Shown: piece after piece, positions 47,836 through 62,705 of the stretch | Position numbering within the stretch: the first letter of the stretch is position 1 | How the letters are laid out: the number at the start of each line of letters is the position of its first letter | Assembly (NCBI GenBank): GCA_907163375.1 | Contig: CAJQUW010016163.1 | Span: forward strand, 310,001-374,000 | DNA length: 64,000 nt | Reading direction: 5' to 3' | Source of the DNA: Prostheceraeus crozeri | Lineage: Eukaryota; Platyhelminthes; Polycladida; Euryleptidae | The notes under the pieces: model-generated | What the model was told of the DNA's origin: nothing | Databases searched by the model: none | What the model saw: only the letters and a program-made list of their open reading frames with translations | Position numbers and translations under genes: made by a program

Positions 47836-49635
47836 TCACACATCCGTCTCTATGTTTATTGAATTGTTATGCGGAGGACTTCCACCACGATGTTGCTGCT
47901 TGGCGTGGTTCTGCTTTGAGAAGTCTGGATTAAGCATGAGGATACCTTCTTCCAGATGCAAATCTGATTCTGACGCAGATCTAGAGTTCGAATTTAAGGA
48001 ATTTTTTAAACTACTAGCACTCCCCCCTCGATAGTTCGGACAGCTTTGAACGTGAACATACGTTTGCTTGTCCTCACTTTCTGTCTCACGATGATAAAAA
48101 TAATTGAAATTTGAAACAATAACGGGCACTGGTAGAGCAATCGTAAGAACACCGGCAATAGCACACAGAGATCCTACCAGTTTGCCCCATAATGTCACTG
48201 GCCTCATATCACCGTAGCCTACTGTTGTCATAGTAACAACAGCCCACCAGAACGCGTCTGGTATCGAGTTAAAATACGATTTGTCGGCGTCTGCTTCGGC
48301 AAAATAAACTGCGCTGGAGAAGAGGATGACACAGATAAAGAGGAAGAACACGAGTAGGCCAAGTTCTCGAACACTGGCTTTGAGTGTCAAACCGAGAATT
48401 TGGAGACCTTTAGAATGTCGGGATAGTTTGAAAATTCGGAAAACTCTCACAAGTCGGATAACTCGAAGGATAGCCAGGGACATGGCTTGATTTTGACTTT
48501 TGCTGTCGTCCGCGATAACGGTGCCTAAGGTTATAAAGTAAGGAATAATGGCCACTATGTCGATGAGATTCATGATGTTGCGGAAGAAAGCAATTTTCTC
48601 GGGCGAAGAGGCAAATCGCACGAGAAGTTCAAAGGTGAACCATACAATACAAGCAGTTTCGATGATAAAGAAAGGTTCCGTAAATTGTGGAATATCGTCT
48701 TCTTCGATGGTTTGCATCGTATCGTTGGTACCGTTGACTACTTTATAATGGCGGAAATGCGGCAATGTCTCCATACAGAATATCACGATGGATAAAAGAA
48801 TGACACACACAGAACAGATGGCGATCACACGAGCTGCCATGGAGCTCTCTGGATATTCGAACAGAAGCCACACTTTTCGCTGGAAGTCGTTGTCAGGAAG
48901 CACCTTCACCTCTTCTTTGATGAAACCCTCGTCCTCTCGATACTTCTCAATAGCCTCTTCTCCAAGTTCGTAGAATTTGATTTCTTCCGTGAAGACATCG
49001 ATTGGGACGTTGACTGGGCGCCGTAAGCGACCTCCACTTTGATAATAATACAAAATGGCATCGAAGCTGGGCCGATTGCGGTCGAAGAAATACTCATTTC
49101 GAAGAGGGTCGTAGTACCGGTTTCGTTTTTGAGGATTTCCCAGTAAAGTCTCTGGGAATTGGTTTAGAGTCCTGAGTTGAGTTTCGTAACGAAGTCCACT
49201 GACGTTGATGACCACTCGTGCGTTATCGTAGTCTCCACCGGAATTCTCGTCGCTGTTCTGATCGTTCTCCTCCTCCGCCAGTTTCGGAAAAGATCTGGAA
49301 GGTGTTAAAACATCAGATTTAGCTCGATGAGTAGGTGGACTTCCAGGTGGACTGGTACCACCTGGGGGCGGTAGAGGATCGATATCAGAAGCAGGTTCTG
49401 GGATATTCGACAGTACACCACTGCCACCGATGCTACTGCCTACTGTCGGAACTCGTGCTGTATTGAAGTACGGCATCAGACCCCCATTGCCTTCTATTCC
49501 TACGTCGAGTTTAGAACTTCGCTTCATTGGAGTTCCACCGGACCGAGCAACGGACCAAAGGCCCCATCGTTCGATGAAATCCATTGTGGCAATCTGTCGA
49601 GGATTGTTGTAAGTGTTGTTCTGATGGGCACACAT
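47836..49635 (-). CDS. Shaker-family voltage-gated potassium channel, Kv1 (KCNA-like)
   Basis: Forms tetrameric voltage-gated K+ channels in the plasma membrane of excitable cells. Uninterrupted frame; the 5' stop is at 49762-49764 and no ATG precedes 49635, giving 599 residues. An ATG at 49584 ([12 protein letters not shown]) has the better context and would give 582. Domains numbered from 49761: T1 tetramerisation 181-280 ([13 protein letters not shown]), S1 309-331, S2 363-385, S3 396-417, S4 428-452 with R433, R436, R439, R442, K445 and R448, S5 466-488, pore 500-522 with TVGYGD, S6 529-556 with PVPVIV. An NGT glycosylation site lies in the S1-S2 loop. The C-terminus ETDV is a PDZ ligand. 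Further 5' exons are possible. Confidence 0.93.
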
Positions 49636-52315: not shown

Positions 52316-52734
52316 CCCCCCCCCCCCTCTGGCACGGCAGAGTGTCGTGGTCGGCCGCCGTGGTGCTTCGTGTCTGAGTCCCCCCCCCCTCTGGAACGAC
52401 AGAGGTTGTGGTCTGTCGTGGTGTGCCGGCCGGGTGGGTCCACGTTCACAACATGTTCGCTGACGTCCCCCCCCCCCCTGCAACAACAGAGTGAGACTCG
52501 GGTGCGTTGGTCCGACCGCCTGGTTGACGTGGGCGACCGTCTAGGTTGACGTGGGCGACCGCCAGGATTAGTCTTGAGGCTATAGTGTGTGATGTTTTTG
52601 GTGTGTAGCGTCCAAACGAAGCATCGGATGAGAAAACGGAGGCCAGATTCGGAATCTACGTGAAATTTTGGGTTAGGAGGGATGTTTCCAGCGAAATCGG
52701 AGAGAAAAAATTTTCGGCTGACGTCCCCCCCCCC
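52316..52734. repeat. GC-rich segment punctuated by poly-C runs
   Basis: C runs of 10-12 at 52316-52327, 52380-52389, 52467-52478 and 52725-52734. The first three are each followed by a CAGAG-containing segment (GGCACGGCAGAG, GGAACGACAGAG, GCAACAACAGAG), so it is a diverged short-period repeat leading into the main array. Composition changes sharply here from the AT-rich flank. Confidence 0.75.
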
Positions 52735-54770
52735 TGGACAGCTTGCTTCCAGTGGACGGATTTTGTCGTGCGATAGCTCGTTTGAAAGCTAAGAGTGAGA
52801 CAAATTCAGTGAAAGAATCGGCTTGTTCCTATCTGTCTTCGTTCAAAAGTTAGAGCGGTTACAAGATTTTAGGTCGGAGCTCGCTCACCTGAAAAAATCC
52901 TAAGTGTCAGAGTGACTTTGTATGGGTAAAATTTTGAAAATTTTCCAAAGTGTGGAATTTCGACCTGGGACCGTCACCAAAACATTTTTCATCAAATTTC
53001 ACTGACCTCCCCCCCCCCCCGACAACAATCTTCTAACTTTGGTTCTAGTGGACGGATTTTGTCTTACAGCTACTCGTTTGAAAGAGGAGAAAAAACTGCT
53101 CGACAACATTTTTTGTTGCGAGTCAATCGGACCAGCCGTTCACAAGTTAGAGCGGTTACAAGATTTTAGGTCGGAGCTCGCTCACCTGAAAAATCCTAAG
53201 TGTCAGAGTGACTTTGTATGGATAAAATTTTGAAAATTTTCCAAAGTGTGGAATTTCGACCTGGGACCGTCACCAAAACATTTTTCATCAAATTTCACTG
53301 ACCTCCCCCCCCCCCGACAACAATCTTCTAACTTTGGTTCTAGTGGACGGATTTTGTCTTACAGCTACTCGTTTGAAAGAGGAGAAAAAACTGCTCGACA
53401 ACATTTTTTGTTGCGAGTCAATCGGACCAGCCGTTCACAAGTTAGAGCGGTTACAAGATTTTAGGTCGGAGCTCGCTCACCTGAAAAATCCTAAGTGTCA
53501 GAGTGACTTTGTATGGGTAAAATTTTGAAAATTTTCCAAAGTGTGGAATTTCGACCTGGGACCGTCACCAAAACATTTTTCATCAAATTTCACTGACCCC
53601 CCCCCCGACAACAATCTTCTAACTTTGGTTCTAGTGGACGGATTTTGTCTTACAGCTACTCGTTTGAAAGAGGAGAAAAAACTGCTCGACAACATTTTTC
53701 GTTGCGAGTCAATCGGACCAGCCGTTCACAAGTTAGAGCGGTTACAAGATTTTAGGTCGGAGCTCGCTCACCTGAAAAAATCCTAAGTGTCAGAGTGACT
53801 TTGTATGGGTAAAATTTTGAAAATTTTCCAAAGTGTGGAATTTCGACCTGGGACCGTCACCAAAACATTTTTCATCAAATTTCACTGACCTCCCCCCCCC
53901 TGGACAGCTAGCTTCTATCTTGGCTTCTAGTGGACGGATTTTCTCGTGCAATAGCTCGTTTGAAAGCTAAGAGTGAGACAAATTCAGTGAAAGAATCGGC
54001 TTGTTCCTATCTGTCTTCGTTCAAAAGTTAGAGCGGTTACAAGATTTTAGGTCGGAGCTCGCTCACCTGAAAAAATCCTAAGTGTCAGAGTGACTTTGTA
54101 TGGGTAAAATTTTGAAAATTTTCCAAAGTGTGGAATTTCGACCTGGGACCGTCACCAAAACATTTTTCATCAAATTTCACTGACCTCCCCCCCCCTGGAC
54201 AGCTAGCTTCTATCTTGGCTTCTAGTGGACGGATTTTCTCGTGCAATAGCTCGTTTGAAAGCTAAGAGTGAGACAAATTCAGTGAAAGAATCGGCTTGTT
54301 CCTATCTGTCTTCGTTCAAAAGTTAGAGCGGTTACAAGATTTTAGGTCGGAGCTCGCTCACCTGAAAAAATCCTAAGTGTCAGAGTGACTTTGTATGGGT
54401 AAAATTTTGAAAATTTTCCAAAGTGTGGAATTTCGACCTGGGACCGTCACCAAAACATTTTTCATCAAATTTCACTGACCTCCCCCCCCCTGGACAGCTA
54501 GCTTCTATCTTGGCTTCTAGTGGACGGATTTTCTCGTGCAATAGCTCGTTTGAAAGCTAAGAGTGAGACAAATTCAGTGAAAGAATCGGCTTGTTCCTAT
54601 CTGTCTTCGTTCAAAAGTTAGAGCGGTTACAAGATTTTAGGTCGGAGCTCGCTCACCTGAAAAAATCCTAAGTGTCAGAGTGACTTTGTATGGGTAAAAT
54701 TTTGAAAATTTTCCAAAGTGTGGAATTTCGACCTGGGACCGTCACCAAAACATTTTTCATCAAATTTCTC
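52735..54770. repeat. Tandem array of seven poly-C-headed units of about 290 bp
   Basis: Units begin at 52735, 53021, 53316, 53607, 53901, 54196 and 54491, so later periods are 291-295 bp. Each ends with CACTGACC and a run of 7-13 C. There are two unit types: B (units 1, 5, 6, 7; begins TGGACAGCT) and A (units 2, 3, 4; begins GACAACAATC). They share the 3' half from GTTAGAGCGGTTACAAGATT onward and differ in the 5' half. Unit lengths are not multiples of three and open frames within them are repeat shadows. Confidence 0.93.
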
Positions 54771-54772
54771 TG

Positions 54773-54905
54773 AACGAGGGGGGGGGAGGTCAGTGAAATT
54801 TGATGAAAAATGTTTTGGTTAAGGTCCCAGGTTGAAATTCGGAAGTTTTAAATTTTTCAAAATTTTCACCACACTGGAGCTCTCACACTTAGGAATTTTT
54901 TCACT
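54773..54905. repeat. Diverged inverted copy of the array unit's 3' half
   Basis: Starts with a run of nine G and continues as the complement of the array unit end (AGGTCAGTGAAATTTGATG, TTTTGGT.A.GGTCCCAGGT). It forms a potential hairpin with unit 7 with a loop of only a few bases. It differs from the array at scattered positions, unlike the units among themselves. Confidence 0.88.
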
Positions 54906-55076
54906 TGTGGCATGTTACATGGACATGTGCTGGCGGACCAACTTCCCGTGGTCATATGAGAATGGTTCAGGTGTCATATTGTAAAGAATGATAAGACAAA
55001 TCGTTTGCAACAAACCGGATGTCGCTACGATGAATACTTTCGGAGATAGAGCCATTTTTAAGTTTTCTTCCGAGCA

Positions 55077-55084
55077 TATATAAA
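55077..55084 (+). promoter_or_regulatory. TATA box for coiled-coil gene
   Basis: TATATAAA followed 26-30 bases later by CACTTCATC, close to the TCATTTCATT element downstream of the other TATA boxes in this cluster. Confidence 0.6.
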
Positions 55085-55125
55085 CCCCCGACAACGTAAG
55101 TCTGATCACTTCATCGAAAGACGAG

Positions 55126-55655
55126 GTAAGCGACGGTCGTCGCTCTGAGCTCCCGATATCGGGTGCAAAGGACTCTATCTTTTGAAGTAGGCAAGCTATC
55201 TTGCTACTTCAAAGTTTGTATGATAGAGTTTGATAGTGTCTTTACTACTGATAAAATTTTTTAAAAGTAGTATGAGTAGTAAAATGCGGAATTTTTTAAA
55301 AATTATTAATTTTCACTTTTTTCAAAGTTTTAACATATAGACTAAGGTTTTCAAGTATCCTGAGTTCAAATCTGCTATCAGATTTGAAATTTAACTAAGT
55401 CTAAGGCAGCTTTGAGGGGTTAGATCCCAGCTACTGATCACTACCTTTGACTCGGCGTTCCTGTTACCACTTCGGGGCAGTGACAATGATGTCTTCAGCT
55501 GTAAAGAGCGGGTATCGGGGAAGATCTCTCACTTCCCTAGTGATCGGTACAAGGCCTTCGGGCTGTCGACGGGATCGAGTGCCACTCACTACACTCTTTA
55601 GGAATATGACTGTACTACATGATTCCAAACTTATACAAATTTCATTATCTTACAG
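55126..55655 (+). other. Predicted intron in 5' untranslated region
   Basis: Donor GAG|GTAAGC at 55126 and acceptor TTATCTTACAG ending at 55655, 17 bases before the chosen ATG. A second donor-like GTAAGT lies at 55096. The region has no long open frame in phase with the gene. It contains a hairpin, GAAGTAGGCAAG then CTTGCTACTTC, at about 55180-55206. Confidence 0.5.
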
Positions 55656-55672
55656 CTAACGATAAATCAGGC

Positions 55673-56851
55673 ATGGCAAACGATAGAAACAGAAAGTATC
55701 ATATCAAAATGTGTGTGTGCGGTCGTATAAATCGCAGTGCGGACGCCAAGGCTCACGTCAAGAAGGCGGGCACCGGCCACATGATTGTCTTGAATAGGGT
55801 TGCGTGCGTGAAGTGTAGAGTGCTGAAGGGTGATGAGGATGAGGCGCGTTTCTACAGAGTGCATGCTGACTGTAGTGGTGGTTTAGTGACTGATTTGAGA
55901 TTTACACAGTTGATTGTGGAAGAGAGGGAGCGAATGTTGGCGAATGTTGCGAATGTTGTTGAGAATGTTGTTGAGAATGTTGTTGAGAATGATGAGTTGG
56001 CGAGAGCGGTTGCGTCGTTGGAGGGTGAGATTGAGCAGCGGAAGAGAGTGCTTGAGAGTGATGATGAGGATGATGTGGATTTAGATAGGGAGCGTGTGAG
56101 GAAGCGTGTGAGGAAGTTGAGCTCTTCGTCATCGGAGGTGTCCAACATCGTCATCACCGACCCCCCGAAGAGCTCATCTTCCCCAAAAGTGAAGAGTGGT
56201 GGGATTCGTGTGCAGTCGGCGAGGTGGTTGAAGGATGAAGAGAAGAGACATGTTTCGCAGCAGATGGCGCATGAGTTGTTAGTGAATAAGTTTGAGAGTT
56301 TGAAGAAAGTGAAGGATGAAGTTGTGAAGGAGTTGGATGAGTTGAAAAAGAAGGATTTGAAGTCGAAGGAGGTGGCGGATGAAAACATTAGAATGAGGCG
56401 TTGTGTGACTGATTTGAAGAATAAGACGCGAGAGTTGGAAGAGAAGAATGATGCGTGTGAGAAGAGGGCGAGTGCTGCGGAGAGAAGAATGAGAGATGCA
56501 GAGGCGAAGTTTGAGGAGATGATGAAGGAGATGAGTGTGTTGAGAGCGAGGAATGTTGAGTTGGAGAGGACTGTGGCTCGGCGGGGTGATGAGAGGCAGG
56601 CGTGTGAGAAGTTGGAGCGCATGAGGGATGAGTGGGAACGTGTGAATGAGGATCGTTTGTTTGAATTTCACATCCCTATTCGGGACAATCATTTGGCCGG
56701 CGAAGTACTCGTCAATCAAAGTCTCGACGAGTCCATCCTATGTTACAATGGTCATCCCACGAAAAAGTGTCTCCATGCCAGCCTGAGAATGCGCGGCCAT
56801 CTACACAAATTTTCGATTCGGAAACGCGCGAGACTACCTAAGGATGACTAA
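55673..56851 (+). CDS. Unknown coiled-coil protein with N-terminal Cys/His cluster
   Basis: 392 residues from ATG 55673 (GGCATGG); an in-frame ATG at 55619 lies upstream of the predicted acceptor and is not preferred. Residues 14-48 hold a possible zinc site: CVC, two His, and CVKC. Then come a short VVEN repeat, acidic stretches, a basic RERVRKRVRK nuclear-signal-like segment, a Ser-rich linker, and a long charged coiled coil at about residues 205-350. The C-terminal 40 residues are basic and different in style. Function unknown; it could be a structural or regulatory protein of the element. Codons are strongly G/A-biased between 55900 and 56650. The stop is followed by an intron donor and then by histone-like module 1. 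Confidence 0.72.
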   Translation: MANDRNRKYHIKMCVCGRINRSADAKAHVKKAGTGHMIVLNRVACVKCRVLKGDEDEARFYRVHADCSGGLVTDLRFTQLIVEERERMLANVANVVENVVENVVENDELARAVASLEGEIEQRKRVLESDDEDDVDLDRERVRKRVRKLSSSSSEVSNIVITDPPKSSSSPKVKSGGIRVQSARWLKDEEKRHVSQQMAHELLVNKFESLKKVKDEVVKELDELKKKDLKSKEVADENIRMRRCVTDLKNKTRELEEKNDACEKRASAAERRMRDAEAKFEEMMKEMSVLRARNVELERTVARRGDERQACEKLERMRDEWERVNEDRLFEFHIPIRDNHLAGEVLVNQSLDESILCYNGHPTKKCLHASLRMRGHLHKFSIRKRARLPKDD

Positions 56852-56855
56852 CTTG

Positions 56856-56916
56856 GTAAGTGAAAAAGTAAATAAGATAGTATATCCTATTCTAACACAT
56901 ATCATTTTCATTGCAG
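56856..56916 (+). other. Predicted 61-nt intron just after the stop codon
   Basis: Donor TTG|GTAAGTG at 56856 and acceptor CATTTTCATTGCAG ending at 56916. It would join the stop region directly to the sequence carrying the histone-like stem-loop, 52 bases further on. Confidence 0.6.
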
Positions 56917-56950
56917 ATCTTTGCCCGCCTTCACCACCCCATCACGTCAC

Positions 56951-57094
56951 TCCCGAGAACGAACCATCGGCTCTCTTAAGGGCCACCTAGGGGCAAGACA
57001 TGATAGAACCTCCACGCGGTTTGCCCTGGGCAGTCTTCGGACTGGCGAATACTATCATTAAGTTGAATCTGCTATCAGTCAACTTGAACGTTGC
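56951..57094 (+). promoter_or_regulatory. Histone-like 3'-end module, copy 1
   Basis: Stem-loop GGCTCT-CTTA-AGGGCC at 56969-56984 followed by ACC, as in replication-dependent histone mRNAs (6-bp stem, 4-nt loop, ACC flank). A purine-containing GGGGCAAGACATGATAGAA follows at the distance where a U7-pairing element would be. Then CAGTC-TTCG-GACTG at 57031-57044, and a stem AAGTTGA (57060-57066) with TCAACTT (57079-57085). Almost identical to copies 2 and 3. Confidence 0.8.
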
Positions 57095-57109
57095 GTCGCG
57101 TTAGAGGGG

Positions 57110-57117
57110 TATATAAA
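57110..57117 (+). promoter_or_regulatory. TATA box for 88-residue gene
   Basis: TATATAAA, followed by CTCATTTCATTTCATTTCA, a likely initiator region. The ATG is only about 31 bases after the TATA box, so the 5' leader would be extremely short. Confidence 0.7.
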
Positions 57118-57148
57118 CCACTGCCTCTCATTTCATTTCATTTCAATC

Positions 57149-57415
57149 ATGCAGACGCCGAACAGTCAAGTCAGCTCTCCTCGCGGACCGCAGTTAAGGC
57201 CGCGAAATTTATTTAATGAATTTGCTAGAATAGAGGAGCAAGACAGAGTTTTTAATAATCTTGCTCGGATTGGCAATCCGATGACAGCAACTGCTGTCAA
57301 TCCAACGGAATGGCGCTACATTCCACTCTATACTCACATGCCAGTTAGTGTGGAAGTCGACAGTGCTACCAAAGAGAGAGTCTTTGACTCTCTCAGCAGA
57401 ATTGGTAGGCTGTAG
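57149..57415 (+). CDS. Small unknown protein, 88 residues, with an internal repeat
   Basis: Complete frame from the first ATG after a TATA box to TAG at 57413-57415. The segment QDRVFNNLARIG (residues 31-42) recurs at the C-terminus as KERVFDSLSRIG (75-86); a weaker third copy lies at 20-29 (NLFNEFARIE). These look like short amphipathic helices. No signal peptide or membrane segment. Histone-like module 2 starts 10 bases after the stop, which supports this being the transcribed gene. No family recognised. Confidence 0.68.
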   Translation: MQTPNSQVSSPRGPQLRPRNLFNEFARIEEQDRVFNNLARIGNPMTATAVNPTEWRYIPLYTHMPVSVEVDSATKERVFDSLSRIGRL

Positions 57416-57424
57416 GATGACGAC

Positions 57425-57563
57425 TCCCGAGAACGAACCATCGGCTCTCTTAAGGGCCACCATGGGGCAAGACATGAGAGAACCTCCTCGCGGTTTGCCC
57501 TGGGCAGTCTTCGGACTGGCGAATACTATCATTAAGTTGAATCTGCTATCAGTCAACTTGAAC
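57425..57563 (+). promoter_or_regulatory. Histone-like 3'-end module, copy 2
   Basis: Stem-loop at 57443-57458 (same 16 bases as copy 1) followed by ACC; UUCG hairpin at 57505-57518; terminal AAGTTGA/TCAACTT stem. It differs from copy 3 at only a few positions. It begins directly after the 88-residue gene. Confidence 0.8.
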
Positions 57564-57631
57564 ATTATGCAGTCGATTGCTATCCCTGAAGCATTCTGAT
57601 TCGCTGTTGAGCAATTCATTGTTGAAAACCC

Positions 57632-57639
57632 TATATAAG
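57632..57639 (+). promoter_or_regulatory. TATA box for 83-residue gene
   Basis: TATATAAG, followed about 22 bases later by CTTCTCATTCAATTT, a likely initiator region, and by the ATG at 57680. Confidence 0.7.
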
Positions 57640-57679
57640 CCAGAAGATTGTAGCGCTTCTCATTCAATTTGAAGTCACG

Positions 57680-57931
57680 ATGGAAGCGACATCTGCCGAC
57701 AATATTCCCGTCTTCACTGATGAAGACAACGGTATTCCCGAGTTCGTCATCCTCGACGAGTGGGATGAGGATGAGAAGAAGGGGAAGATCAAGAGGATCG
57801 TTTGGACGGATGAGGTGTGGACTCCAAATACCACTCGCATCCGAAAGGTGCCAGATGCACCACCACGGCTTAGGCGGTATAGGGTATACGAGAACCTAAG
57901 CGTCATACCCATTGACTATTCCAGTCAATAG
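57680..57931 (+). CDS. Small unknown acidic/basic protein, 83 residues
   Basis: Complete frame from the first ATG downstream of the TATA box to TAG. The N-terminal half is acidic with aromatic residues (IPEFVILDEWDEDE), the middle is basic (KKGKIKRIVW), and the C-terminal half is rich in Arg and Pro (DAPPRLRRYRVYE). No Cys, no membrane segment. Histone-like module 3 starts 11 bases after the stop, matching the arrangement of the preceding gene. No family recognised; a small nucleic-acid or protein-binding factor is one guess. Confidence 0.65.
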   Translation: MEATSADNIPVFTDEDNGIPEFVILDEWDEDEKKGKIKRIVWTDEVWTPNTTRIRKVPDAPPRLRRYRVYENLSVIPIDYSSQ

Positions 57932-57942
57932 TCAAATTTACG

Positions 57943-58086
57943 TCCCCGAGAACGAACCATCGGCTCTCTTAAGGGCCACCATGGGGCAAGACATGATAGA
58001 ACCTCCTCGCGGTTTGCCCTGGGCAGTCTTCGGACTGGCGAATACTATCATTAAGTTGAATCTGCTATCAGTCAACTTGAACGTTG
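57943..58086 (+). promoter_or_regulatory. Histone-like 3'-end module, copy 3
   Basis: Stem-loop at 57962-57977 followed by ACC; UUCG hairpin at 58024-58037; terminal stem retained. The copies show near-complete identity over about 140 bp but unrelated sequence on both sides, so the module itself is the unit of conservation or of recent duplication. Confidence 0.8.
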
Positions 58087-58424
58087 CAAATGAAGTTCGG
58101 TGTAATACTTCCTTTCGACGGGCGTTCCTGTAAAGGGCGGCGGTGAAACCCGTAGCTATGTATACCGCAAGGGACATTCGGCAATGGTCAATCTTGTTAA
58201 ACCTCTCTGCGTCATGTTTGCAAGTGATTGCCTCTGTCTCAACGTAGCATGCATTCGCGTCAGGGCGACATTTAGCCAACTGTCGAAGGTTGCCTAAAAC
58301 TTTCCATTGCATACGTTATGAGAACCATGAGTTCTACCTGTCTCTATCAATGAGACGAATTGATGAATGGAATGAAATGGGAGGACACTCACGCGCCACA
58401 CGCAACATAACACACTTCTCTCTT
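58087..58424. other. Non-coding gap after module 3
   Basis: No supported gene. An antisense frame (58312-57938) crosses module 3 but owes its length to the module sequence and is not preferred. Confidence 0.5.
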
Positions 58425-58820
58425 CCGTAGTCTAACAAGCTCTTTACACATGGATCGCAGTCGATTGCTATCCCTGTATCAGAAGTGTAAGCTATCTTAA
58501 TTTATTTGACACTATTTTATCTACCATCATCGTCCATATGAAATGTTTTTAGATTTACAAGTTAGACTAAGCGTGCTACTATTTCCAAATGAAAAAGTAT
58601 ACATGGTTAAATCATCCACTTAAGCCCATCCGTAGTCTAACAAGCTCTTTACACATGGATCGCAGTCGATTGCTATCCCTGTATCAGAAGTGTAAGCTAT
58701 CTTAATTTATTTGACACTATTTCATCTACCATCATCGTCCATATGAAATGTTATAAGATTTACAAGTTAAACTAAGCGTGCTACTATTTCCAAATGAAAA
58801 AGTATACATGGTTAAATTAT
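58425..58820. repeat. Direct tandem duplication, 205-bp unit
   Basis: The sequence starting CCGTAGTCTAACAAGC at 58425 repeats at 58630 with very few changes and runs to about 58820. The unit contains GCAGTCGATTGCTATCCCTG, which also occurs near 57572 just after module 2, so parts of this intergenic sequence have been copied around the cluster. Confidence 0.9.
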
Positions 58821-58882
58821 TCACTAAAACCCCATTCAAGTAAGTCAGTATGAAAGCAAAGATAATACGAAATAAACATTTA

Positions 58883-59320
58883 TTATGGCATGTATTTCAA
58901 AAGGTCTTCATCGTCAATATCGTCCCAGAGTCTGGCTTCACATAGATTACAAAAACAGTTGAGCTGCTTTAAACGTTCTTCTGCAGCGTCCCTCACTTTC
59001 TCAATGTACGCCCACTCCGCCACGGTTCGCGGTTGGGAGTTAGGGGTGTACCACTCCCATATTTGATGCAAGTGCGACTTGCTGGTCGTCTCCATCACCC
59101 CTTCGGCATCATATTGTAAATATTTCCACCGTATGCCTGTTAGGTCGGGCAACTCCTCTTCATCCTCCTCCGATAATGATAACTTTCGTATATTGTCGAG
59201 ATTGTATGTCTTCTCCACCTTCGCCTTTCTTGGTGCATTTGGTGTAACGAGCACCTTTGCTGATGTATATGGAGAGGAGAACTCCAATGCGGTATTTGGT
59301 GTTGTTGGAGGACTTGTCAT
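58883..59320 (-). CDS. Unknown 145-residue protein with CxCxxC motif
   Basis: Minus-strand frame from ATG 59320 to TAA at 58885-58883; the stop overlaps an AATAAA (58884-58879 on the minus strand), so the gene is probably polyadenylated. The N-terminus is Thr/Ser/Pro-rich (MTSPPTTPNT), followed by a very acidic run (SLSEEDEEELPDL), a central segment with several Trp/Tyr, and a C-terminal CFCNLCEARLWDDIDDEDLL that could hold a metal. It is divergent from the polymerase gene, sharing the intergenic region 59321-59433. No family recognised. Confidence 0.7.
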   Translation of the reverse strand: MTSPPTTPNTALEFSSPYTSAKVLVTPNAPRKAKVEKTYNLDNIRKLSLSEEDEEELPDLTGIRWKYLQYDAEGVMETTSKSHLHQIWEWYTPNSQPRTVAEWAYIEKVRDAAEERLKQLNCFCNLCEARLWDDIDDEDLLKYMP

Positions 59321-59576: not shown

Positions 59577-62542
59577 ATGGTAAGTTGAAAATTTCCTCTC
59601 ATCTCCCTCAAACGTGTGACTAATAGCATCTTCCTCAATTTCAGACATCAACTTCATCACCAACGCCCTCTCTTCTCGAGGAAAGTTTAGAGTTATTGAG
59701 TCAAGGTAGGTTGTAACACTACACTGAGGCTTGAACAGAGATGAAAGAATGATTTCTAGTCAACCTCTTATTAGTAAAACAAGATGATAGCGAGGAATGG
59801 CACTACTGTGGTATTCCCAAAATCTCTCGCTTGTACACTCACTTGGGGCACTCTAAAAGAGGTGAACATTTTGTATGCGACCGCTGCATCCGCTCATTTT
59901 GGAGTAAAGATAAATTTGAAACTCACTATGAATGGTGCAAGCGAGGTAAATTACAAATGGAACGCATGCCCAAAGATAAAATATTTTCACATAGGGATAA
60001 TGGTGACGAATTAAGTCCCCTGCGTGTCATTTACGCAGACATAGAATGCTACATTGATGATATCATCCACAAGCCAGCAGCCATATCCTGCTATGAAGTA
60101 TGGCATGACCACTTTAGGAATAGACAAAACAAAATGCATACTTGGCAAGGTGAAGATTGCATTTCAAAATTTCTAGAATTTCTCGATAAAGCTGCAAAAT
60201 TTCAACAATCATATGATTCCCAATTGCAGCGTAAGTCACTACATATGTCAGATGAAGACAAACAAAAATTTGAAAGTTGCACATCCTGTCCTAAATGTCA
60301 TAAAACGTTTGATGACGATAAAATTAAGAAAGTGCGTGATCATGATCACATCACTGGTAAATTTAGAAACGCACTCTGCTCCAAATGTAACTTTTCACTT
60401 AGGTTGAGACGTCGTGTACTACCCGTCATTTTTCATAACTTTAAGGGCTATGACAGTCATATGCTCATAAAAGGAGGGTTGAGCCAGATGAAATCGTGGC
60501 AGTTTAATGTAATAGCACAAACGAGAGAAAAATTCATGGCAATGACAGCAAAAGTACCAGTAGATAAAACTAAAGAAAATAAGACAGTCTTCTTCGAAAT
60601 AAAATTTTTAGATTCATTTCAATTCATGTCAGCGTCACTAGCTTCTCTCGTTCGTAATCTCAAGTTTCTTCCCCATAGTCAAACTTTAAAGAAACACTAT
60701 CCAAACTTAACGGATGAAATAATCACTCGCAAAGGAGTCTTTCCTTATGCGTATTTTAGCTCAATGTCTAAACTAAATGAAACAACCCTTCCTTCCATTG
60801 ACAAATTCAAAAACGATTTGACGGGTGAAGATTGTCCAGTAGAGGACTATGAACATGCTCAAGAGGCATGGTTAAAATTTAATTGTAAAACGTTTGGCGA
60901 TTATATGATCGCTTACTTAGAATTAGATGTCATTTTGCTGGCTGATGTCTTTCAGGAGTTTCGACGAGTGGCATTAGAAGAAGACAAATTAGATCCTATC
61001 CACTTTGTCAGTCTACCAGCCATGTCCTTTAAATCAGCCTTTAAAATGACTGGTGAGACCATTCATCTCTTACAAGACCCGGAGATGTATAATATATTTG
61101 AGAGCGGAATACGCGGTGGTCTCACATTTGTAAATAAACATCATATAAAATCTGAAACAGTAGGTGATGATCATATCCACCTAAAGTACTATGACCAAAA
61201 TAATTTATATGGCAGTTCACTGTCTAAACCACTACCTCATTCCGAGTTTAGTTGGTTAAATCAAAATGAGCTTGAGTATTACTCCAACCCTTCAAACATA
61301 CTGAATATTCCAGATGAAGGTGATTGGGGATATTATTTTGAAGTGGATTTGATTTATCCAAATAGTATTAAAAATAAAACTGCTGATTTCCCACTCGCAC
61401 CTGAATCTGGCGAAGTGACTGAAGATATGTTTTCACCATTCATGTCACAATTTCATAATAACTTAACAGAGTGTGGACAGCCAAGGTACAAACCATGCCG
61501 CAAACTTTTACTCACCCAATATGATAAGAAAAATTATCTCGTACACTTCTGCATATTAAAATTCTATTTAGAAATGGGCATGCTTCTAAAGTCAGTTCAC
61601 CGCATTATCAAATTTAGACAGAAAGCCTTCCTCAAACCCTACATAGATAGTAACAGTCAAAAACGTGCACTCGCCCAAAATAATTTTGAAAAGGATTTTT
61701 ATAAATATAAGAATAACAGTCTATTCGGAAAGACCATGGAGGATGTTAGAAAACGTATGAATTACAAACTAGTCGTTGATGAACAAAAATATCACAAATT
61801 GACCTCATCACCTCTTTTCATTGACAGAGACATCATCGATGAGGATCTTGTAGGTGTTAAAATGATTAAATCAGAAGTTGAGTTGTGCAAACCCATCTAT
61901 ATTGGGCAAGCCGTTTTAGATTATTCCAAGCTTGAAATGTATCAACTCTTCTACAAAATATTAAAACCATGCCCTCTCGTAAAAGAGGTTCGCTTGCTGG
62001 GTGGTGATACAGATAGTTTCTTTTTAGGAATTACCACTCAAAAAGATTTAAATTTTAATGAAGTAGGTAAGTCATTAGAAAAATATTTCGATACATCTAA
62101 CTACAATCCCACTCATCCACTCTATTCCATACAGAATAAAGCCAAACTTGGTTGTTTTAAGGATGAAACAGCAGGAAAGGAAATAGATGAAATGATTCTC
62201 CTCCGTCCTAAAATGTATTCCATGAAACTAAAAGAATGTGCAGATAGTATTAAGCGTGCTAAAGGTATATCAAAATCCATTGTTCATAAAATGAAACATC
62301 GGTCCTATAAGAAGGCCTATAAAAATAAAACTATAACGTTTGTCAATATGACAATCTTAAAATCTCAAGTTCATACTGTGAAAACGTACACGTTCAAGAA
62401 ACGAGCACTTTCGGCATGGGAGGATAAGAGGTGTTGGATAGGACATAACACATCTCTTCCACATGGACATCCTGACACAAACATACCTCCACCCAAAAGA
62501 ATAAAACTCACGCTACCACATTCAGGAGATGTATTGACATAA
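59577..62542 (+). CDS. Family B DNA polymerase, protein-primed type (Polinton-like), spliced
   Basis: Replicative polymerase with proofreading. The main exon is open from 59753 to TAA at 62542 but has no suitable ATG near its start. Predicted upstream exons: ATG at 59577-59579 with donor GTAAGT at 59580; acceptor ending 59644; exon 59645-59705; donor GTAGGT at 59706; acceptor ending 59759 or 59774, both keeping frame. The N-terminus has a Cys/His finger pair (HYCG, HLGH, CDRC, HYEWC). Exonuclease: YADIECY, NFKGYDSH, YLELDVILLADVF. Between Exo I and II lies a CPKC..DHDHITGKFRNALCSKCN region like endonuclease VII zinc/HNH motifs. Polymerase: YDQNNLYG (A), YKNNSLFGK (B), GGDTDSFF (C). Full motif set, no break. 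AATAAA at 62700-62705. Confidence 0.9.
59580..59644 (+). other. Predicted 65-nt intron in the polymerase gene
   Basis: Donor ATG|GTAAGT and acceptor CTTCCTCAATTTCAG. Phase 0, directly after the initiator codon. Confidence 0.65.
59706..59759 (+). other. Predicted second intron in the polymerase gene, alternative 3' end
   Basis: Donor CAAG|GTAGGT. Two acceptors, TTTCTAG ending 59759 and CTTATTAG ending 59774, give 54- or 69-nt introns. They are 15 bases apart, so both keep the phase-1 frame into the zinc-finger exon. Confidence 0.58.
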
Positions 62543-62691: not shown

Positions 62692-62705
62692 TTTATTTCA
62701 ATAAA
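62692..62705. terminator. Convergent polyadenylation signals
   Basis: AATAAA on the plus strand at 62700-62705 serves the polymerase gene; TTTATT at 62692-62697 is AATAAA for the minus-strand gene ending at 62721. The two transcripts are predicted to end within a few dozen bases of each other. Confidence 0.72.

Follow-up and report, generated by a model that had tools for sequence, protein, structure and literature searches.

Three genes of a virus-like mobile element in the flatworm Prostheceraeus crozeri are each followed by a structured, repeated 3'-end device, hereafter a module, in which a near copy of the host histone mRNA stem-loop stands five nucleotides (nt) upstream of a fold resembling the self-cleaving ribozymes of hepatitis delta virus (HDV). 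The element lies in the 64,000-nt stretch of genomic DNA analyzed here (contig CAJQUW010016163.1, positions 310,001 to 374,000), which we call the window. We propose, with a probability of about 0.8, that the modules form mRNA 3' ends that would be independent of the U7 small nuclear ribonucleoprotein (snRNP), made by the ribozyme and bound by stem-loop-binding protein (SLBP). The hairpin, the HDV-like folds, their fixed spacing, the likeness of the hairpin to that of host histone genes, the exchange of the HDV-like ribozyme for a twister ribozyme in related elements, and an SLBP domain encoded by the host can each be read from the DNA. The parts are known, and their combination is new within the literature that we searched.

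Histone-type stem-loops follow three nonhistone genes

The hairpin GGCTCTCTTAAGGGCC occurs in three exact copies on the forward strand (Table 1), as the initial annotation had reported, and no further match was found in the window with up to three mismatches allowed. Shuffled windows contained a mean of 0.15 matches, and 0 of 100 reached three. Each copy has the histone form, with a GG-YYY-U arm, a 4-nt loop, an A-RRR-CC arm, an ACC-type flank, and a stop codon nearby; the first loop position is a C, as in the host histone genes that we found. The Rfam histone stem-loop model RF00032 aligns to all three (18.9, 17.0, and 18.1 bits), and every pair is intact in the one copy displayed in the alignment. 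The expectation (E) value, calculated over 4227 families, was 0.0021 in 61 nt, 0.042 to 0.21 in 1.25 kb, and 0.4 to 2 in 12 kb. The covariance check suggested initially gave, for the hairpin searched within 61 nt, a result better than chance (E 0.0021), with all scores under the gathering cut-off. In modules 2 and 3 the stem-loop is the best fold of 39 nt. The hairpin belongs to an ~140-nt repeat, in which identity with the first copy is 95% for the second and 98% for the third.

The hairpins stand 117, 27, and 30 nt downstream of the stop codons of open reading frames (ORFs) of 410, 88, and 83 amino acids (aa), respectively, the first distance including a likely intron. The short spacing claimed initially for the two small genes was thus borne out, with the measured values replacing the 30 to 50 bases first given. 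None of the three ORFs has a Pfam histone match, in agreement with their description as nonhistone genes, and the forward strand carries no AATAAA or ATTAAA from 54900 to 58871. The use of AATAAA by other genes of the element holds for two of them, the 145-aa gene and the DNA polymerase B (PolB) gene.

An HDV-like ribozyme fold begins at a fixed distance from each stem

A 69-nt fold of an HDV-like self-cleaving ribozyme, first recognized by eye and tested afterwards, begins 5 nt after each stem and fills most of each repeat. It has the nested double pseudoknot, with a 7-bp P1 and with P2, P3, and P4 in HDV order, the L3 core (UCYNCG), and a C where J4/2 begins; P1 and P4 also appear in the best nested fold of every module. 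Both Rfam HDV families match all three modules (E values, each over 4227 families, of 0.014 to 0.44 in 1.25 kb and 0.13 to 1.9 in 12 kb), and in 3/3 modules the base that follows the cut, position 1 of RF02682, falls 5 nt past the stem. Judged by their fold, the modules are HDV-like and not members of the curated families RF00094 and RF02682. A strict HDV descriptor written after the sequence had been seen (P1, P3, the L3 core, the GG of P1.1, P4, and J4/2 with its C, P2 not being required) matched only the three modules on both strands of the 64 kb and had 0 matches in 1500 dinucleotide shuffles. A chance origin of hairpin and ribozyme was rejected on the shuffle tests of the hairpin and of this descriptor.

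Histone mRNA is normally cut 4 to 5 nt after the stem, and the predicted ribozyme cut at +5 coincides with that position. Ordinary histone processing, in which SLBP and the U7 snRNP would cut 4 to 5 nt after the stem, could itself explain the hairpin and its ACC flank, which fit RF00032, and would be compatible with a cut 5 nt past the stem. With a ribozyme downstream, HDV-like here and twister in related elements, there is hardly space for a histone downstream element as well, and we regard U7-directed processing as highly improbable. On the sequence after the stem, a U7-type downstream element is not supported: the purine stretch that the initial annotation had offered as a U7 pairing site turned out to be the HDV-like ribozyme at +5, and a twister takes its place in the related elements.

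Two further structures were seen around the modules. The hairpin top CTG-CTAT-CAG that each module has at its 3' end occurs also at 55356-55381, within the likely 5' intron of gene 1; the lower stems at 55356-55381 and 57059-57089 differ in sequence and are both paired. A 25-nt stretch ending in GGCGTTCCTGT stands downstream of the CTATCAG hairpin at both 55440-55464 and 58107-58131 (76%) and is maybe a further structured RNA.

Tail length and ribozyme core are kept among the modules compared

The exact hairpin is present in 12,437 copies in the 2.05-Gb genome of P. crozeri, and the first bases of the ribozyme, GGGGCAAGA, stand exactly at +5 in 11,235 of them; the reversed-pattern controls gave 0 in both counts. 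Among 41 modules (34 distinct) from the window and 20 fetched regions, of which L044 and L045 are at least partly inverted copies of one another, an HDV-like ribozyme adjoins the exact hairpin in 40, 39 of these at +5 and one missing a G. The last two letters of the tail vary (AT, TA, AC, TT) at constant tail length, and this constancy despite varying letters is, on the sequences compared, the telling point, since the copies are not independent.

The catalytic C (GCGAATA) is present in 25/25 distinct HDV-like modules, at a base that the search pattern G..AA.A left free. Across seven elements chosen for their exact hairpin, the variable sites amounted to 7/198 in the ribozyme, 0/102 in the 3' hairpin (a count that includes the final 3 nt of P2'), 69/519 in the two small coding regions, and 24/298 in other noncoding sequence. 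Ribozyme and 3' hairpin together (7/300) were less variable than the other noncoding sequence (P = 0.0016), and the ribozyme differed from the coding regions at P = 6e-5; homogenization between copies could contribute to the low variation. These figures bear on whether the modules are relics that functioned in a founder element and of which the present copies, passively spread, are mostly dead. Thousands of copies, some with a broken P2 or P4, and a stop inside the 88-aa homologue of one related locus (L064) would suit such relics. The catalytic C kept in every distinct module, the low variation of ribozyme and hairpin, and the fact that all three module-bearing genes of the window are open frames argue against it, and we regard it as very unlikely. 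Pattern scans of viral contigs gave three matches, phage-coding-like and with no ribozyme, and later scans gave none.

The stem-loop is kept when the ribozyme class changes

The only one of the 41 modules to lack an HDV-like ribozyme, at locus L057, carries a type-P1 twister according to Rfam (41.3 bits, E 2.9e-6). Among the first 30 of 100 loci bearing the hairpin with a C-G fourth pair, we counted by eye 20 twister-like and 6 HDV-like ribozymes, 2 H4 genes, and 2 loci with neither. In a part of these loci Rfam recognized twister-P1 at 28.8 to 36.5 bits (L064, L065, L067, L071, L084, L094, and L095, where L094 is the same place as L066 and L095 the same place as L071). By fold, the related loci have P1, P2, P4, and the conserved loops of this type, including GGUCCCAAGCCC. 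Fifteen distinct twister variants fit the search pattern, all with the stem-loop directly upstream, most of their loci having been fetched because of the stem-loop and L080 having a broken stem-loop pair. Two-sided compensated changes were found in P1 (CTTC/GAAG, CTCC/GGAG), P2 (TGCA/TGCA, TGTA/TACA, TGTG/CACA), and P4 (GCG/CGC, GTG/CAC), modest in number and from few lineages; pairs are broken in P1 or P2 of L065 and L081 and in P4 of L066 and L087.

In L095, a twister element, PolB matches that of the window with 80% identity over 512 aa, the 145-aa gene matches with 92%, and the order is as in the window: coiled-coil gene, module, small gene, module, reversed 145-aa gene, PolB. Two modules were seen there, and the small gene is unrelated to the two of the window. 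L067 has a relative of the 88-aa gene (56%) followed by an HDV-like module and, upstream, a twister module behind a coiled-coil-like frame, with a compensated pair in its stem-loop, GGCCTTTTCAAAGGCC. In L064, a broken 88-aa relative with an internal stop is followed by a twister module. These arrangements indicate that the stem-loop is kept while the ribozyme class changes. The search for the module in related elements that had been suggested at the outset thus recovered the stem-loop with either ribozyme, and the conserved design, read from these sequences, is a host histone stem-loop joined to a predicted self-cleaving ribozyme.

Short open frames overlap ribozymes 2 and 3 (57462-57599, 45 codons, and 57981-58133, 50 codons), with ATGs in a strong context, GCCACCATGG. 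These frames would fit a repeat conserved at the DNA level or a small coding sequence starting at ATG 57462 or 57981, the RNA motifs being by-products. Module 1 has no ATG at the corresponding place, and the HDV-like and twister motifs, the fixed +5, and the compensated twister helices would be left without a reason; we give this explanation almost no weight.

The element hairpin is a near copy of the host histone stem-loop

A histone search of the P. crozeri genome scored 150 matches, from which 30 loci were fetched (L014 to L043), 25 of them with a readable H3 frame. The H3 frames are scattered across many contigs. Four of the 25 carry a stem-loop, in each case GGCCCTCTTAAGGGCC, 26 to 30 nt after the stop; no stem-loop was seen in the 220 nt downstream of the stop in the other 21, which may represent replication-independent genes or retrocopies. 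The hairpin also led to two H4 genes of a single contig, with identical printed flanks, in which GGCCCTCTTAAGGGCC lies 34 nt after the stop. This comparison covers H3 and H4. Host and element hairpins have the same CUUA loop and the same AGGGCC arm and differ only in the fourth pair (C-G in the host, U.G in the element). Because the Rfam consensus has UUUA, the CUUA loop is a peculiarity common to host and element. The host H3 and H4 stem-loops also score under the RF00032 cut-off of 34, at 25 to 31.1 bits.

Moreover, a GAACG-type motif lies 7 to 8 nt upstream of the stem-loop in host genes and elements. At 49 distinct forward stem-loop sites (18 matches with the hairpin on the opposite strand being excluded), GAACG was present within 6 to 9 nt in 37, all in the forward sense, and a one- or two-base variant, counted by hand, in 11 more; locus L069 had none. 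Another locus with the host-type hairpin, L090, keeps the motif. The host genome also codes for an SLBP RNA-binding domain, split over two pieces of a single contig (52.7 and 32.9 bits; Pfam cut-off, 27), one of which reads ARRQRDIDNGKTTTEYEGYVKSIPK. The histone-type 3' signal that the initial annotation placed behind nonhistone genes of the element, a PolB-bearing one, is thus supported: it is near-identical to the host H3/H4 stem-loop, in a host with an SLBP domain.

The ribozymes could be active for another purpose, such as releasing or circularizing element RNAs or cutting read-through transcripts, the hairpin serving as a folding aid or insulator and its histone likeness being incidental. 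HDV-like ribozymes elsewhere free mobile-element RNAs from cotranscripts (PMC3774820, PMC4035085), and the genes of the element are closely packed head to tail, the two small ones with their own TATA boxes. Such a purpose would leave to coincidence a hairpin one base off that of the host histones, with the same CUUA loop, an upstream GAACG-type motif, and a similar distance from the stop, which moreover stays when the ribozyme class changes; we consider it unlikely.

The element and its surroundings

Table 1. Features of the element and its modules (positions in the window)
Feature	Position	Strand	Remarks
Gene 1 (410-aa ORF)	55672..56851	+	Coiled-coil-like by composition; first gene bearing a module
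Predicted 3' untranslated region (UTR) intron of gene 1, 61 nt, GTAAGT...CAG	56856..56916	+	Called by eye; between stop and module 1
Module 1, 5' flank with GAGAACG motif	56952..56968	+	GAACG-type motif common to host H3/H4 3' UTRs
Module 1, histone-type stem-loop	56969..56984	+	
Module 1, 5-nt tail ACCTA	56985..56989	+	Would stay on the mRNA after the predicted cut
Module 1, HDV-like ribozyme	56990..57058	+	Predicted cut 56989/56990; RF02682 26.8 bits, RF00094 24.8 bits; matches strict descriptor
Module 1, conserved 3' hairpin AAGTTGA..TCAACTT	57059..57089	+	
TATA box of gene 2	57110..57116	+	
Gene 2, 88 aa	57149..57415	+	Relatives in L064 (broken) and L067
Module 2, histone-type stem-loop	57443..57458	+	27 nt after stop of gene 2
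Module 2, HDV-like ribozyme	57464..57532	+	Predicted cut 57463/57464; one broken P2 pair
Module 2, conserved 3' hairpin	57533..57563	+	
TATA box of gene 3	57632..57638	+	
Gene 3, 83 aa	57680..57931	+	Relative in L064
Module 3, histone-type stem-loop	57962..57977	+	30 nt after stop of gene 3
Module 3, HDV-like ribozyme	57983..58051	+	Predicted cut 57982/57983; RF00094 27.5 bits, RF02682 26.5 bits; matches strict descriptor
Module 3, conserved 3' hairpin	58052..58082	+	
145-aa gene without module	58883..59320	-	AATAAA overlaps stop (58884, -); 92% identical in L095
PolB large exon with endonuclease VII domain, without module	59957..62542	+	AATAAA at 62700 (+)

The ORF of gene 1 opens at 55619, with the ATG at 55672 as its likely true start and a likely 5' intron at 55126-55655, also called by eye. 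Two of the candidates scored in the protein database are related to its protein; a relative, P0122, is 68% identical, starts at the matching place, and has the same KDD end. In L067 and L095, GT..AG stretches similar to the predicted 3' UTR intron directly precede the module. A short motif that by eye recalls a BH3-like helix recurs in the 88-aa protein (LFNEFARI, VFNNLARIG, VFDSLSRIG).

The AATAAA of the polymerase gene lies ~158 nt behind its stop. The PolB exon has no match to PF03175, though some of its relatives do. PolB relatives occur in metagenomes; the PolB search found no match among viral contigs and none among phages, and the PolB profile had no match among solved structures. Two short contigs filed as bacterial and archaeal metagenome-assembled genomes (L004 and L005) hold distant PolB relatives (35% and 28% identity, respectively) and are perhaps misbinned or related elements. 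The Polinton-like label given initially is consistent with the polymerase and its relatives; the element continues past the end of the window.

A tandem array occupies 52714-54907, just left of the element; its units of ~295 bp have poly-C tracts, and its right end carries a 94-nt inverted copy. The interval from module 3 to the 145-aa gene contains two tandem 204-nt repeats (58424-58832, 96%), and a GCAGTCGATTGCTATCCCTG motif is also found at 57569. On the reverse strand, 47836-49635 is a long open frame of a Shaker-type potassium channel, with the Rfam potassium channel RNA editing signal at 87.7 bits.

Discussion

We propose a model in which each module by itself forms the 3' end of one element mRNA. 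RNA polymerase II would transcribe from the gene through the module, and the HDV-like ribozyme would fold and cut the nascent RNA directly before the first base of P1. The mRNA would then end in a near copy of the host histone stem-loop followed by a 5-nt tail (ACCAU or ACCUA) bearing a 2',3'-cyclic phosphate. The ribozyme would thus replace the U7 snRNP, and the U7 snRNP, CPSF, and a poly(A) signal would all be dispensable. Host SLBP would bind the stem-loop in place of a poly(A)-binding protein, so that export, translation, and timing of the element mRNAs would follow those of replication-dependent histone mRNAs. The ribozyme class would be interchangeable, as suggested by the twister behind the same stem-loop in relatives. 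Cleavage activity, SLBP binding, transcript ends, and S-phase timing are what we infer from the arrangement.

A more far-reaching version, which we put forward tentatively and at somewhat less than even odds, would give the element its own U7-free pathway of histone-type mRNA. Fast, swappable HDV-like and twister ribozymes would generate cyclic-phosphate ends, the host-copied stem-loop would bring S-phase timing through SLBP, and the blocked end would resist the trimming and uridylation that destroy histone mRNA as S phase ends. A 2',3'-cyclic phosphate would be expected to delay histone-type decay.

Several observations weigh against ribozyme-made, SLBP-bound ends. The proposal is drawn entirely from DNA sequence, and the Rfam scores are low throughout: (i) RF00032 gives 17 to 18.9 bits in the window and 17 to 27.1 in the elements, under its gathering score of 34; (ii) the HDV families give 24.8 to 28.3 bits, under gathering cut-offs of 50 (RF00094) and 44 (RF02682); and (iii) the twisters give 28.8 to 41.3 bits, under the RF03160 cut-off of 67.2. 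The whole-window Rfam scan at gathering thresholds lists neither hairpins nor ribozymes, and the 12-kb search of the modules gives weak E values (0.13 to 2). A looser HDV descriptor recovered 2/3 modules with 0.95 chance matches per shuffled window. When 39- and 54-nt pieces of module 1 are folded, the stem-loop is slightly outscored or is replaced by an alternative. The 12,437 copies are one repeat family and not independent, and the loci were fetched via the hairpin, so that the association of ribozyme and hairpin holds for hairpin-bearing loci only. The HDV-like helices of the 25 distinct modules, in which variation is too low for covariation to show, have no two-sided compensation; some of these copies have lost pairing in P2 or P4, and the stem-loop arm of one is damaged. 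In L067 one P4 pair of the HDV-like module is broken, and this module falls outside the Rfam hits up to E 5. Compared with other noncoding sequence, the ribozyme alone is less variable at P = 0.057. Twister ribozymes are cut at a U-A step (PMC6154101); here the predicted U-A cut would fall 6 or 8 nt past the stem instead of 4 to 5. Finally, L069 and L090 carry the host-type hairpin GGCCCTCTTAAGGGCC with no recognizable ribozyme and no histone gene either.

The proposed ends resemble those of replication-dependent histone mRNAs in the 6-bp stem, 4-nt loop, GG..CC ends, U-A top pair, and ACC-type flank, and likewise in the short 3' UTR, the cut a few nucleotides past the stem, and the absence of a visible poly(A) signal behind the genes. 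Histone processing uses SLBP, U7 base-pairing, and CPSF73 (PMC7026596), whereas the element has nonhistone genes, a predicted ribozyme instead of the U7 snRNP and CPSF73, a predicted 2',3'-cyclic phosphate, and a likely 3' UTR intron in gene 1. With the HDV-like ribozymes of mobile elements (R2, L1Tc, and others) the modules share the nested double pseudoknot, the C of J4/2, and a mobile carrier. Those ribozymes, located at the 5' end of the element in R2 (PMC3774820), free element RNA from a cotranscript, whereas here three copies stand at gene 3' ends behind histone-type stem-loops. Across HDV-like ribozymes in general the nested double pseudoknot is maintained although the sequence varies, and mutation of the catalytic C to U abolishes activity (PMC10879173). 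The twisters of the relatives match the known type P1 in the conserved loop GGUCCCAAGCCC, the GAGGG, the U-A cut step, and the compensated P1, P2, and P4, and differ in their position at gene 3' ends, immediately downstream of a histone-type stem-loop.

In the laboratory, an HDV ribozyme fused behind a histone stem-loop yields exact 3' ends in vitro (PMC12775136); the same arrangement is here natural and present in thousands of copies. Polintons and adintoviruses are likewise large DNA elements with PolB, an endonuclease VII domain, and PolB relatives in metagenomes, and no ribozyme or histone signal at their gene ends was described among the matches listed. Capsid and integrase genes, at which no search was aimed, were not seen in the element. 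We found no description of mRNA ends made of a histone stem-loop and a self-cleaving ribozyme among the open-access matches listed, an earlier subscription report being possible, and the excerpt of PMC11071296 describes no such arrangement.

If the proposal is true, the modules would represent a new route to mRNA 3' ends that is distinct from both poly(A) addition and U7 processing and in which self-cleavage reveals a host-type SLBP signal, and would amount to mimicry of histone mRNA at the RNA level by a virus-like element. That two unrelated ribozyme classes have been exchanged in nature suggests that what is preserved is the stem-loop. The arrangement makes testable what SLBP alone, without the U7 snRNP, does for an mRNA, and it raises the question of why a DNA element would tie some of its genes to S phase.

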